Of a stretch of 64,000 nt of DNA, positions 23,576 to 32,895 are shown one piece after another. Source of the stretch: Melioribacteraceae bacterium. Lineage in GTDB: Bacteria > Bacteroidota > Ignavibacteria > Ignavibacteriales > Melioribacteraceae. The stretch spans positions 1 to 64,000 of the forward strand of contig JALSTB010000043.1 in the NCBI GenBank assembly GCA_026983955.1, given 5' to 3'. The position numbers were made by a program, and so were the translations under genes. The notes under the pieces are model-generated. The model was not told the origin of the DNA, did not search any database, and was given only the letters and a program-made list of their open reading frames with translations. The stretch's first letter is position 1, and every line of letters begins with the position of its first letter.

Positions 23576-25843
23576 ATGAAAATAAGAAAACAAGAAGCGC
23601 TCGAGTATCACAGTAAAGGCAGACCCGGCAAAATCGAGGTCAGATCAACAAAGCCTTTTTTCACCTCACGCGATTTGTCTTTGGCTTATACACCCGGCGT
23701 AGCTGAGCCTTGCTTGGAAATTAAAAAAAATCCCGACGATGTTTACAAATATACCGCACGTGGTAATTTGGTTGCGGTAATCTCAAACGGTACAGCCGTG
23801 CTTGGACTTGGCTCCATAGGTCCGGAAGCGGGTAAACCGGTTATGGAAGGAAAAGGTGTGCTTTTTAAGAGATTTGCTGATATCGACGTTTTCGATATTG
23901 AAATTAACACAACCGATCCGGACGAGTTTATAAAAACCGTAAAATTACTGGAGCCTACTTTCGGTGGAATAAATCTGGAAGATATAAAAGCGCCGGAATG
24001 CTTTCAGATTGAAGAAGAACTTAAAAAATCGATGAACATTCCCGTTTTTCACGACGATCAACACGGAACCGCAATAATTTCGAGTGCCGCGTTAATTAAT
24101 GCAGCGGAAATTGCAGGTAAAAAACTCGAAGATTTGCGAATGGTAATTGTAGGTGCCGGAGCCGCCGGAATCGCTTGTGCAAAACTTTACGTTCAAGCCG
24201 GTGTGAAAAAAGAAAATATTGCAATGTTCGATTCGAAAGGGCATATTACCAAAGACCGTACCGATTTAAACAAATACAAATCGGAATTTGCCACCGAGAA
24301 AAAATACGCTTCCCTCGAAGAAGCAATGATGGGCGCCGATGTATTCGTCGGACTTTCGAAACCGAATCTCGTATCGAAAGAAATGGTTAAAAATATGGCG
24401 CCGAATCCGATAATTTTTGCACTTGCCAATCCCGATCCCGAAATAACTTACGAAGATGCAATTTCCGTAAGAGACGATTTAATAATGGCAACCGGCAGAA
24501 GTGATTACCCGAATCAAGTAAATAATGTGCTCGGATTCCCCTTTATTTTCAGAGGTGCACTCGATGTTCGCGCAAAAGCAATAAACGAAGAGATGAAAAT
24601 GGCAGCGGTTAAAGCTTTGGCAAATTTGGCTAAAGAAAAAGTACCCGAAGTGGTTGTTAAAGCTTATGGTAACGTTGAATTTTCTTTCGGCAGGGAATAT
24701 ATAATTCCCAAACCGTTCGATCCGCGTGTACTTTGGAAAGTTGCTCCGGCCGTGGCAAAAGCGGCAATCGAATCCGGTGTTGCCCGCCGTAAAATTGAAA
24801 ATTGGTTTGAGTACGAAGAACAACTGAAAGAACGCCTCGGGTATTCGCAAGAAGTGATCAGGGCAATGATCCATAAAGCTCAGCGGAATCCCAGAAAAGT
24901 TGTTTTCCCGGAAGGTGAAGAAGAAAGAATTATTCGTGCTGCTTACGACGTTGCAGTCCACGATAAAATTGCTCAACCGGTTCTTTTGGGTAAGAGGGAA
25001 AATATTCTAAATAAAATTAAGGAATTGGGATTCGATAGCAAGATTTTTACCGTTATCGAACCGGAAAGAGATGAAAAATTGGAAAAATATGCAGATGAAT
25101 TTTATCAACTGCGACAAAGGAAAGGAATAACCCGCAGAGAAGCTTTACGTTTGATGAAACAACCTAATTATTTCGGTTCTATGATGGTTCGTTTTGGCGA
25201 TGTGGACACATTGCTGGGGGGATTGACCCAGAATTATCCCAACACCATACGGCCTGCTCTGGAATGCATTGGCGTTAAAGAAGATTTGGGGTTGGTCAGC
25301 GGGCTCTACATTGTTATTATAAACCGGAAAGTTTATTTCTTCGCCGATACTACGGTTAATATCAATCCCACTGCCGAAGAACTTGCTAAAATCGCCATAA
25401 GTACAGCCGATACTGTAAGGGAATTCGACATCGAACCGAGAGTGGCAATGCTTTCGTTCAGTAATTTCGGTAGCGTCAAACATCCCGAAACTCTTAAAGT
25501 TAAGAAAGCCGTTGAAATAGTTAACGAACAAAGACCCGATATTATTTTGGATGGGGAAATGCAAGCCGATACTGCAGTTGTAACCGAAATACTTAATTCC
25601 GAATTTCCGTTCGCAAGATTGAAAACAGCGGCAAACGTGTTGATTTTCCCCGACTTGAATGCCGGAAATATTGCTTATAAGTTATTCGAAAGAATTACGG
25701 ATGCATCCGTTATAGGTCCGGTTTTAATGGGAATGAAAAAACCGGTTCATATTTTACAAAGAGGTGCTTCGGTAAACGATATTGTTAATATGACAGCAAT
25801 AGCAGTAGTGGAAGCAAGTAAACACGAAAGTATAATAACTTGA
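23576..25843 (+). CDS. maeB: NADP-type malic enzyme fused to phosphotransacetylase-like domain
   Basis: A 755-residue MaeB-type protein. Residues 1-420 are the malic enzyme (oxidative decarboxylation of malate to pyruvate), with [30 protein letters not shown], the metal/substrate motif [16 protein letters not shown] and the Rossmann loop [12 protein letters not shown]. Residues 430-755 are phosphate-acetyltransferase-like ([20 protein letters not shown] at the start). In MaeB the C-terminal domain usually senses acetyl-CoA rather than catalysing. It appears monocistronic and links central carbon flow to acetyl-CoA, next to the acetylation cassette at 28.7-32.9 kb. Confidence 0.95.
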
Positions 25844-28725: not shown

Positions 28726-31131
28726 ATGTTTCGCATTATTACGGAAGGTTTGGATTACAAAGAACATGTTCTACTGAAAAACGGACAAGGGATTTTGCTT
28801 AAACCCGCTACCGTCGAAGATTTTCAGCTAATTAAATCTTTCATGAAACGTGTTTCACGCGAAAGTTTGCACATGCGCTTTATGGCAGCTGTATCGGAGG
28901 TTTCCGATAAGTTGATTAACGATTTGTGCAGTGGGGATTTTAAAGATTCCGGATGCTTGCTTGCAATTACGGGTGAAGGAGAAAATGCCAAAGTGGTTGG
29001 CGTTGGAAATTATACCGCCACAGGCAACGGTCGTTCGGCCGAGGTTGCTTTTCTTATTGAAGATGAATATCAAGGCAAAGGAATTAGCACTTTGTTGCTG
29101 GAAAGGTTGGCCGGACTTGCAGCGGCAAACGGCATAATTGAACTGGAAGCGGAGGTTTTACCCGACAACCAGCCAATGATAAATGTGTTCAAAAATTCCG
29201 GTTTCACTGTTCACCAAGTATGGAATTCCGATACAATTCATATCGAATTGCCTGTGGGGAGCGCAGCTGCTCTTTGGAAAAAAGCGGAACTGCGGGAAAG
29301 AATAGCAGTGGCAAATTCTTTATCTCCCATTCTCAATCCGGAAACAGTTGCCGTAATCGGTGCTTCGAGGGACCCCGACTCGATTGGAAATATAATTTTC
29401 AAAAATATTTTAAATGGAGGATTTACCGGAACCCTTTATCCCGTCAATCCGGAAGCCGTTTCGATTAGCGGAGTAAAAGCATATTCCAAAATTTCCGAAT
29501 TGCCGGAAAAAATCGATTTGGCGGTTGTTTCATTACCGGCTGAAAAAGTACTTGGCGCCGTGGAAGAAGCAATTAAAGCTGGTGCAAAAGGATTTGTTAT
29601 TGTCTCGGCAGGTTTTGCAGAAGCCGGTGAAGAAGGTAAAATCAGGCAACAAAAATTAGTCGATTTAATTCAAGCCAACGGTGTAAGATTAATCGGTCCC
29701 AGTTGCCTTGGGGTGATGAATACCAGCCCACAGATTTTGTTGAATGCAAGTCTTGCCCCGTTGATGGCAAACCGGGGTCCGGCAGGATTTTTTTCACATT
29801 CGGCCGCATTGGGTTTGGTTATACTCGAATATGCAACCGAGAACGGATTGGGTTTCACATATTTTGTTTCCGCCGGAAACAGGGCGGATGTAACGGGAAA
29901 CGATTTATTACAATTTTGGGAAGAGGATCCCGATACCAAAATGGCAATAATGTATCTGGAAACATTCAAAAACCCGCGGCGGTTTGTTCGAATTGCAAGA
30001 CGTATGTCGTACAAAAAGCCGATTCTTTGTGTGAAAAGCGGAAGGAGCCGTGAAGGTAAAAAAGCAACCGAACAAAGAAGCGGAATTCCCGGAGCAGGCA
30101 AGGTTGAAGTGGAAGCTCTGTTTCAGCAGACGGGTATAATTTTAGCCGAAACATTGGAAGACCTTTTCGATGTAGCGCTCGTTCTTGCTCATCAACCGTT
30201 GCCTAAAGGAAACAAAGTGAGTATTATTGCAAATTCCGCAGGAATGGCTACCATATTTGCGGATGCATGCGAGGCTAACGGATTGGAAATAAAAGGACCG
30301 GGCTTGGTGAACTTGGGTGCTTTTACGTCACCAGGGCATTATCGCGATTCGGTGAAAAAAGCTCTTACGAACGATGACGTAGATGCCTTGTTAATCGGTT
30401 ATGCATGTGTGGGAAATTGTACTACACAACCATTCGCACAAGCAATAAGATTGGGAGTGAAAGAAGCAGAAGAGCAAACGGGTATACGTAAACCGGTGTT
30501 GCTTTGTTTAATGGGTGAAGTCGGTTCCGTATCTTTAATCGAAGAAGATGAAGAACAGAGAATGTTTCCCGCTTTCCGTTTTCCCGAAGCAGCTCCCAAA
30601 GCATTGGGTAAAATTGTGAAGTATGTTGAATTTAAAAACAGTCCGCACGGCGAAATAGTTTGGTATGAAAACGTAAACGCCGATGAGAGCAGAAAATTGG
30701 TTCAAAGTTTGATTAAAAATTATTTAACGAACGAAGAAGTGTTTGAGGTTGAAAAATCCGGTGCTCTGCAGATTCTCCGTTATTACGGAATAGAATTTTC
30801 GGATGTTCCCGCAATTGAAACTAATGAATTGGAAATTTCAGTAAAAACCGATCCGTTGTTCGGACCCTTAATCGAATGTAAAAAAGAATCCAAATCGGTT
30901 TTGCGAATTACGCCTTTAACCGACCGTGATATTGATGAAATATTAAAAAGTATCAATATTAATAATACCACTTTAATTAAAGAAGTGCTCGGAAAAATAT
31001 CGCAGCTTATCGAAGAAATTCCATGGTTATGGTGTTTGAAATTAAAATTGAATGAAAAAGATGGAAATTTGGTATTGTATGAAATTTCAATGAAGCTAAA
31101 ATCTTCGGGTATTAAAAGACCATCGTATTAA
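28726..31131 (+). CDS. GNAT acetyltransferase fused to degenerate NDP-forming acyl-CoA synthetase (Pat-like)
   Basis: An 801-residue protein, probably a protein lysine acetyltransferase. Residues 20-170 are a GNAT domain (acetyl-CoA loop EDEYQGKGISTLLLE). Residues 190-490 are the CoA-binding and ligase subdomains of an ADP-forming acetyl-CoA synthetase (AVIGASRDPDSIGN; FVSAGNRADVTGNDLLQF). The phospho-His segment, SSHTGA in active synthetases, is TEQRSG with Arg451 in place of His. The ATP-grasp part (665-801) lacks its ATP-binding half but keeps LFGPLIE and RITPLTDRDIDEI. Salmonella Pat has the same domains in the reverse order and has also lost the His. The next genes are a CBS-ACT protein and a deacetylase, as in acuABC. 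Confidence 0.85.
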   Translation: MFRIITEGLDYKEHVLLKNGQGILLKPATVEDFQLIKSFMKRVSRESLHMRFMAAVSEVSDKLINDLCSGDFKDSGCLLAITGEGENAKVVGVGNYTATGNGRSAEVAFLIEDEYQGKGISTLLLERLAGLAAANGIIELEAEVLPDNQPMINVFKNSGFTVHQVWNSDTIHIELPVGSAAALWKKAELRERIAVANSLSPILNPETVAVIGASRDPDSIGNIIFKNILNGGFTGTLYPVNPEAVSISGVKAYSKISELPEKIDLAVVSLPAEKVLGAVEEAIKAGAKGFVIVSAGFAEAGEEGKIRQQKLVDLIQANGVRLIGPSCLGVMNTSPQILLNASLAPLMANRGPAGFFSHSAALGLVILEYATENGLGFTYFVSAGNRADVTGNDLLQFWEEDPDTKMAIMYLETFKNPRRFVRIARRMSYKKPILCVKSGRSREGKKATEQRSGIPGAGKVEVEALFQQTGIILAETLEDLFDVALVLAHQPLPKGNKVSIIANSAGMATIFADACEANGLEIKGPGLVNLGAFTSPGHYRDSVKKALTNDDVDALLIGYACVGNCTTQPFAQAIRLGVKEAEEQTGIRKPVLLCLMGEVGSVSLIEEDEEQRMFPAFRFPEAAPKALGKIVKYVEFKNSPHGEIVWYENVNADESRKLVQSLIKNYLTNEEVFEVEKSGALQILRYYGIEFSDVPAIETNELEISVKTDPLFGPLIECKKESKSVLRITPLTDRDIDEILKSININNTTLIKEVLGKISQLIEEIPWLWCLKLKLNEKDGNLVLYEISMKLKSSGIKRPSY

Positions 31132-31144
31132 TTTAGGGGGAAAA

Positions 31145-31774
31145 ATGTTAATTAATGAAATTATGCACCGTGAGCCCGTAACAATTTCTCCGGACACAAA
31201 ATTATTTGCGGCTTATAAACTGATGCATGAAAAAAATATCCGTCATTTACCGGTAATTGAAAACGGTAAATTGGTGGGAATTATAACCGACCGGGATTTA
31301 CGAAGCGCAACCAGCAAACTTTCCGAAGAACCGTTTCAACCGGAGGACGAAGTAGGGAAAGTTATGAAGAAGGATGTAAAAACAATTCATCCTCTCGATC
31401 CGGTGGATATTGCTACGAAAATTATGAGGGAAAATAAAATCGGTTGCCTGCCCGTTTTGGAAAACAATAAGCTCATCGGAATTGTTACGGTAACCGATAT
31501 GCTGGATGCTTTGTTAATGCTTACCGGTATTCACCGCCCTTCGGGAAGATTGGAAATAAGTTTGCCGGATAAGCCAGGTAAATTGGCAAAACTTGCACAA
31601 CATCTAGCCGAAAAAAGAGTCAATATTCATTCGATATTAACGTACCCGGCAATAAACGGAAGAATAAGAATTGTGTTAAGAATAAGTACCATCGATATTC
31701 GTGGCATTGCGCAAGGTCTTTGCAATGCGGGATTTGAAATTATTTGGCCTCCTCAAATGTCATGTGCGGAATAA
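31145..31774 (+). CDS. acuB: AcuB-like protein: two CBS domains plus ACT domain
   Basis: A 209-residue protein with tandem CBS domains (residues 5-60: MHEKNIRHLPVIENGKLVGI; residues 75-130: MRENKIGCLPVLENNKLIGI) and a C-terminal ACT domain (RLEISLPDKPGKLAKLAQ, residues 140-205). This is exactly the domain order of Bacillus AcuB. CBS domains bind adenine nucleotides and ACT domains bind small ligands, so it is probably the energy or metabolite sensor of the cassette. A GGGGGAAAA ribosome-binding site precedes ATG 31145. It lies 13 bases after the acetyltransferase and overlaps the deacetylase start, so the three are co-translated. Confidence 0.88.
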   Translation: MLINEIMHREPVTISPDTKLFAAYKLMHEKNIRHLPVIENGKLVGIITDRDLRSATSKLSEEPFQPEDEVGKVMKKDVKTIHPLDPVDIATKIMRENKIGCLPVLENNKLIGIVTVTDMLDALLMLTGIHRPSGRLEISLPDKPGKLAKLAQHLAEKRVNIHSILTYPAINGRIRIVLRISTIDIRGIAQGLCNAGFEIIWPPQMSCAE

Positions 31775-32895
31775 TTTATCACCCGAAATACTTGGAGTAT
31801 GATTTAGGCGACCAACATCCGTTCAGTCCGGTCCGTATTGAAATGGTAATGGATTTGCTGCATGAATTTGGTATTGAGCCGGAAGTTGAAACTCCGGAAG
31901 TTGTAACACCGCAACAGCTTGAAGTGATTCATGAGCCTGAATATATTGAAGTTGTTGAAAAAGCCGGAAGGGGAGAAACAGATACGAGATTTGAAAAATA
32001 CGGATTGGGCACAGCCGATAATCCGGTAAAAAAAGGAATGGCGGAAGCGGCAAGATATATCTGCGGCGGAACTTTGCTCGGCGCCCGGCTACTTTTGGAA
32101 AACAAATACAAAAAAGTCCTGCAAATGGGCGGGGGGTTTCATCATGCTCAAAGAAATTTGGCTTCCGGATTTTGCCTCTACAATGATTTGGCTTTGGCAA
32201 TTAAACACATGACGGAAAACGGTTGGCATGTAGCTTACCTCGATATAGATGTTCACCATGGTGACGGAGTGCAAAATATTTTTTATGAAGATGATAAAGT
32301 AATGACTTTGTCTTTACATGAATCGGGTGAATATCTTTTCCCTGGAACAGGTTGGATTTACGAATCGGGAAAAGGAATGGGAAAATCCCTTAAACTGAAT
32401 TTACCTTTCGAACCTTTTACCGAAGGGGAATCATATATCGGTATTTTAGATGAATTATTGGAATCGGCGCTCGGGTATTACCGTCCGGATGCATTGATTG
32501 TTCAAGCCGGTGCCGATGCTCATTTCTCCGATCCGCTTGCCGATTTATTGCTGACCACACAAGATTATGAACGGATTTTTAAAGCCGTTATCCAAAAGGC
32601 GGATGCCTATGCCAACGGAAGAGTTCTTTTTACTTTCGGTGGAGGTTATTCTTTTGAAGCAACGGCAAGAATATGGTCACTTTTATTTTTTATATTAGTA
32701 AATTCAAATATTGAAGAGAAATTACCTGAAACATGGTTGAAAAAATGGGAGGAAAGATTGGGTGTGAAAATTAAAGAAACGTTTCACGACCCAAATCCAT
32801 CCTACAAGCAAATTCCACGGAAGAGTGAAATTGAAAATCATAACAAAGATATGCTTAGGCGTTTACTCGATATTGTAATGCCCGATTGGTTCTGA
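31762..32895 (+). CDS. acuC: AcuC-like zinc-dependent (histone-deacetylase family) protein deacetylase
   Basis: A class I/II HDAC-fold deacetylase of about 377 residues. The active-site dyad is GFHHAQRN, the zinc ligands are in YLDIDVHHGDGVQ (Asp and His) and QAGADAHFSDPLA (Asp), and the transition-state Tyr is in TFGGGYS. Family members such as AcuC remove acetyl groups from acetyl-CoA synthetase lysines. ATG 31762 is preferred to the TTG at 31744 because MCGIIYHPKYLEYDLGDQHP begins the family's conserved N-terminus. It overlaps acuB by 13 bases and ends 1 base from the convergent hydrolase gene. The substrate here is inferred; no acs gene is in the window. Confidence 0.9.
   Translation: MCGIIYHPKYLEYDLGDQHPFSPVRIEMVMDLLHEFGIEPEVETPEVVTPQQLEVIHEPEYIEVVEKAGRGETDTRFEKYGLGTADNPVKKGMAEAARYICGGTLLGARLLLENKYKKVLQMGGGFHHAQRNLASGFCLYNDLALAIKHMTENGWHVAYLDIDVHHGDGVQNIFYEDDKVMTLSLHESGEYLFPGTGWIYESGKGMGKSLKLNLPFEPFTEGESYIGILDELLESALGYYRPDALIVQAGADAHFSDPLADLLLTTQDYERIFKAVIQKADAYANGRVLFTFGGGYSFEATARIWSLLFFILVNSNIEEKLPETWLKKWEERLGVKIKETFHDPNPSYKQIPRKSEIENHNKDMLRRLLDIVMPDWF

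Follow-up and report, generated by a model that had tools for sequence, protein, structure and literature searches.

A pat-acuB-acuC operon in a Melioribacteraceae bacterium and its probable role as an acetylation switch of acetyl-CoA synthetase

The window, a stretch of 64,000 nucleotides from a Melioribacteraceae bacterium, carries three closely spaced genes on its plus strand in the order typical of an acu operon (GNAT writer, AcuB, AcuC). These are pat (28726..31131), encoding a type II protein acetyltransferase of 801 aa; acuB (31145..31774), encoding a CBS-CBS-ACT protein of 209 aa; and acuC (31762..32895), encoding an HDAC-type lysine deacetylase of 377 aa when read from its ATG. Frames and Pfam domains agree with the earlier note, made from the sequence alone, which had described overlapping or closely spaced GNAT, CBS-CBS-ACT and HDAC genes with the content and order of acuABC. 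The order, AcuB and AcuC hold up, as does the note's statement that a Pat-like fusion replaces AcuA. Because a two-domain protein of 801 aa stands in place of the small single-domain AcuA, we class the locus as a variant of acuABC and not as acuABC proper.

A gap of 13 bp separates pat from acuB, and a ribosome-binding-like AGGGGG (31135..31140, plus strand) stands 5′ of acuB. For acuC, the earlier note had chosen the TTG at 31744, which gives a frame of 383 aa (31744-32895). The start is probably ATG 31762 instead, since all four species of the genus share this codon, whereas the TTG stems from a Trp codon that is conserved in the overlapping acuB; with the ATG, acuB and acuC overlap by 13 bp. 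Scans of the locus for promoters and terminators gave nothing above chance level. Three genes upstream of pat, at 23576-25843 of the window, lies a gene for a malic enzyme-phosphotransacetylase fusion, and this neighborhood is kept almost identically in the related genome G711 (pyrH, frr, maeB-pta, LD-transpeptidase, Omp85, the trio, and iminopeptidase).

Pat has an N-terminal GNAT domain (residues 1-175, 28726..29250, plus strand; PF00583, 39.7 bits), followed on the same strand by a CoA-binding and succinyl-CoA-ligase-like part (residues 199-523, 29320..30294; PF13380, 88 bits; PF13607, 148 bits; a TIGR02717 match covers the same residues). Its sequence and fold matches in the PDB are Escherichia coli PatZ (9it0/9isq) and the GNAT domain of Streptomyces lividans Pat (4nxy/4u5y), and Pat orthologs share 46-59% identity. 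The structure model is of moderate quality (mean pLDDT 76.6, pTM 0.56), and we count only the GNAT match as evidence: this domain superposes on 4u5y with an rmsd of 2.1 over 164 columns. E106 aligns with E809 of PatZ, a residue that contributes to the activity of PatZ/SePat and is not essential to it (PMC8556138), and 19 of the 20 relatives aligned also have Glu there. QGKGIS forms the acetyl-CoA loop.

The NDP-forming acyl-CoA-synthetase part of Pat is probably catalytically dead. By alignment and column count, Arg451 occupies the phosphohistidine column of the ADP-forming synthetases; no ATP-grasp match to Pfam was found in the protein; and the ATP-grasp region is shortened to a remnant (residues about 700-768, 30823..31029, plus strand), seen in a weak partial alignment to 8wzu that skips about 70 residues. 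The family varies at this column: 13 of the 20 aligned Pats have His there, mostly within AHI(A/G). Type II Pats have been described as without the phosphohistidine, and the ligase part as inactive in Pats of types I and II (PMC8556138). The fusion reported in the earlier note as a large Pat-like protein is real, and its architecture is a known one, that of type II Pats such as the one from S. lividans (PMC8556138).

By sequence, the CBS-CBS-ACT protein is an AcuB ortholog. It matches two CBS domains (PF00571, 121 bits) and the ACT families PF22190 and PF01842, and the nearest solved structures are Geobacillus AcuB (9s4w, E 5.9e-41), Thermus TTHA0829 (5awe), and Bacillus subtilis AcuB (9s4v/9qs7). 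R33, H34, R50, D118, and W201 are retained. Of the nucleotide-site residues of B. subtilis AcuB (Arg33, His34, Arg51, Lys120, and Asp122), four are kept and Lys120 is replaced by Val116; Geobacillus AcuB likewise has no Lys there (Gln in the alignment). The contacts between AcuB and AcuC are partly changed: in addition to the same Lys120 to Val116 replacement, Met188 corresponds to Ile183, and the partner residue Arg197 of AcuC corresponds to Glu196 (counted from the TTG; 190 from the ATG).

Experiments published in 2026 identify AcuB of Bacillus and Geobacillus as a nucleotide-binding inhibitor of AcuC (PMC13121692, PMC13039410), which agrees with the suggestion in the earlier note that the CBS-ACT protein ties the locus to nucleotide levels. 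The two studies are at odds over the signal: in one, AcuB inhibits AcuC with AMP only and Ap4A abolishes the inhibition (PMC13121692); in the other, Ap4A enhances it (PMC13039410). Nucleotide-gated inhibition of AcuC is the likely role of AcuB here as well, with AMP and Ap4A as possible ligands.

AcuC matches the histone deacetylase family (PF00850, 273 bits). The zinc ligands and the catalytic His-His/Tyr are kept (H127, H128, D163, H165, D252, and Y296, in ATG numbering), at the positions named for Geobacillus AcuC (PMC13039410). Both the GNAT domain and the deacetylase therefore retain their catalytic residues on alignment, a point on which the earlier note had let its reading depend. The window genome also encodes two sirtuins, which could deacetylate acetyl-CoA synthetase (Acs).

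Each of the four genomes sampled from the genus carries the trio in the same order, with intact frames. It is not typical of the class as a whole: in the class sample (119 genomes) only the window genome had the trio, and AcuB and AcuC of this type were found in no other genome. Full-length Pat occurs elsewhere in that sample in only eight genomes, all of one genus of another family and all without AcuB and AcuC; in the four loci of that family inspected (4/4), pat is divergent from the gene for the same Acs type as discussed below. Among 345 Bacteroidota, 14 further genomes have AcuC orthologs, with acuB adjoining in four, and no match to Pat was found near these 14 acuC genes (in flanks of about 8 kb, shorter where a contig ended).

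A contig search with AcuC as the single query returned one locus only, since patterns taken from one sequence alone tend to be poorly conserved. This locus, on a Holophagaceae (Acidobacteriota) contig, holds the full trio together with a divergent 558-aa acyl-CoA synthetase bearing PKTISGK. AcuC is present in 37 of 297 sampled Acidobacteriota genomes. According to counts tallied by hand from tables, with tblastn used to locate acuB in high-GC loci where ORF picking had missed some, acuB adjoins acuC in 36 of these 37, and pat lies within the cluster in 30: directly upstream in 26 (pat-acuB-acuC) and just downstream in four. An AMP-forming CoA ligase is encoded beside the cluster in 26 of the 36 loci inspected. 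Many of the clusters pair with the different, 558-aa CoA ligase and not with Acs, so the target of the cluster may not always be Acs. The conservation of gene order proposed as a test in the earlier note extends to the genus and to Acidobacteriota, and not to the rest of the class sample. Its recurrence in four species of the genus and in many Acidobacteriota goes far beyond what chance would give. In two further Acidobacteriota loci (L146 in G510 and L148 in G467), an AcuC-like gene, a diverged AcuB paralog, AcuB, and AcuC stand in a row with no pat nearby, likely a duplication of the AcuB-AcuC pair.

The acs gene of the window genome is on another contig (C174:259-2286), and its product contains the motif PKTRSGKIMRR, with the acetylatable PKTRSGK. 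In two other genomes of the genus, acs lies upstream of pat on the same strand, at 77 bp in G710 and 102 bp in G709 (aligned ends), so that the order is acs-pat-acuB-acuC; it is unlinked in G711, as in the window genome. Acs of the window genome is 92% identical to the linked Acs of G710 and 83% to that of G709. Its identity is 68-70% with the Acs that goes with Pat in the other family, and no other Acs in the class sample exceeds 46%. Of 61 genomes of that sample, exactly the three that bear Pat have the Pat-linked Acs type (co-occurrence P = 2.8e-5, Fisher test, uncorrected for kinship).

The trees of Pat, AcuB, and AcuC agree: in each, the window sequence, and then the genus, falls into a supported clade shared with the same Acidobacteriota (G536, G556, G706, G619, and G490; G536 was left out of the AcuC trees, its frame having a stop). 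Acs of the window genome is 82-86% identical to the Acs of these five genomes, which are the nearest by all three proteins. We relied on these identities in preference to the Acs tree, in which rows L203 and L204 may be wrong frames. This concordance, together with the Acs identities, suggests that the whole acs-pat-acuB-acuC module is shared with Acidobacteriota through horizontal transfer; the phyla sampled for this question were Bacteroidota and Acidobacteriota only, and donor and direction are not proven. On the simplest reading, acs split off from the trio in the lineage that led to the window genome and G711. What is observed directly is the order of the genes, their domains and catalytic residues, the linkage to acs, and the shared ancestry of all four. 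Conserved linkage and ancestry shared with the AMP-forming Acs also support the earlier note's view of the trio as one writer-sensor-eraser unit, and point to Acs as its target.

We therefore read the trio as an operon that switches Acs on and off by acetylation, with Pat as writer, AcuC as eraser, and AcuB as a nucleotide-dependent inhibitor of AcuC, and put the probability of this at nearly four in five. In known systems, AcuA or Pat places an acetyl group on the catalytic lysine of Acs, and AcuC takes it off (PMC11255334, PMC13121692). By homology and from this literature, we infer the enzymatic steps, the target lysine, the sensing of acetyl-CoA, and the inhibition of AcuC by AcuB as follows. 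The dead ligase part of Pat would probably sense acetyl-CoA, and Pat would acetylate the catalytic lysine of Acs in PKTRSGK, turning the enzyme off; AcuC would strip the acetyl group by zinc-dependent hydrolysis and turn it on again. The CBS pair of AcuB would bind adenine nucleotides and its ACT domain would block AcuC, so that in an unfavorable nucleotide state Acs would stay off. The AcuB step leans on the two 2026 papers on Bacillus and Geobacillus (PMC13121692, PMC13039410).

There is some doubt whether a type II Pat acts on Acs: the best-studied example, PatA of S. lividans, is poor at acetylating its own Acs and has acetoacetyl-CoA synthetase as its preferred substrate (PMC4053389). The trio might accordingly be a broad-range protein acetylation system, whose main targets would be other proteins such as CoA ligases or EF-Tu, with Acs one of many. 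AcuC of Bacillus and Geobacillus does act on EF-Tu, MurC, and YabA besides AcsA (PMC13039410), the window genome has 25 AMP-binding domains, and the Holophaga-type clusters have their 558-aa ligase as partner. Against this, linkage and co-occurrence point to one Acs type, whether in the genus, in the second family with Pat, or among the Acidobacteriota closest to it; the genomic linkage thus favors Acs here, and we regard a broad range as possible but doubtful. With regard to the AMP-binding domains, G000 contigs C121, C69, and C34 carry open frames of 2000-4500 codons in which these domains are repeated, probably nonribosomal peptide synthetase clusters.

It is less likely still that AcuB regulates Pat, or Pat and AcuC both, instead of AcuC alone. 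The position of acuB between pat and acuC and the changes at some published AcuC-contact residues would fit such a role, but acuB stays with acuC where pat is downstream or not nearby, the class members with Pat only have no acuB, and B. subtilis AcuA is unaffected by AcuB (PMC13121692). Finally, acs has parted from the trio in the window genome, and neither promoter nor terminator rises above chance, as might be expected if the three genes were mere neighbors or decaying remnants with no joint function. We consider this extremely improbable, since the frames are intact in all four species, the order recurs in both phyla, and the trees are concordant; the conserved order also led us to reject a two-gene remnant or chance neighbors.

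Each protein family at the locus is known and the order is that of acuABC; the departures are a type II Pat as the writer, the phyla concerned, and the location of acs. Bacillus and Geobacillus acuABC with acsA share with it the order of writer, AcuB, and AcuC on one strand, the orthology of AcuB and AcuC, and a partner that is an AMP-forming Acs with an acetylatable lysine, encoded beside the cluster (here, in relatives). The Bacillus writer is the small GNAT AcuA, however, and acs is divergent there, whereas in the genus mates it is co-directional upstream. S. lividans PatA has the same arrangement as our Pat, an N-terminal GNAT and a C-terminal inactive NDP-forming acyl-CoA-synthetase part, and its GNAT is matched by the model of ours (4u5y/4nxy), but PatA is longer and has a collagen-like G-P-S motif (PMC4053389); Pat here shares its operon with AcuB and AcuC, joined by Acs in relatives. 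The type I enzymes, E. coli PatZ and Salmonella Pat, resemble it in their two domains and presumed Acs lysine and differ in their reversed domain order, longer ATP-grasp part, and sirtuin eraser, CobB. In the acuC-pat pair of Tsukamurella tyrosinosolvens, a type II pat overlaps acuC, but the order is acuC-pat, there is no acuB, and identity is about 33-35%. We found no prior description of a pat-acuB-acuC operon in the open-access literature, although absence is not proven.

We lean slightly toward a wider interpretation, that acs-pat-acuB-acuC is a self-contained module with two inputs (acetyl-CoA sensed by the ligase part of Pat, adenine nucleotides by AcuB) that may move between phyla as a unit and bring a nucleotide-gated Acs switch, until now known from Firmicutes, to Gram-negative bacteria. 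A function was assigned to AcuB as late as 2026, for Bacillus and Geobacillus alone; its pairing with AcuC beside a different, two-domain writer in two more phyla suggests that the inhibitor-eraser pair is a part that can be reused. The nucleotide site and the interface vary naturally among these proteins, and this variation could help to test the conflicting models of AMP or Ap4A as the signal. Apart from the trio, a second CBS-CBS-ACT paralog is encoded at L087:7423-8067 (G000:C41), with Arg-Arg replacing Arg-His at positions 33-34; beside it are five frames on the same strand, whose sizes suggest a putative branched-chain amino acid ABC transporter operon.
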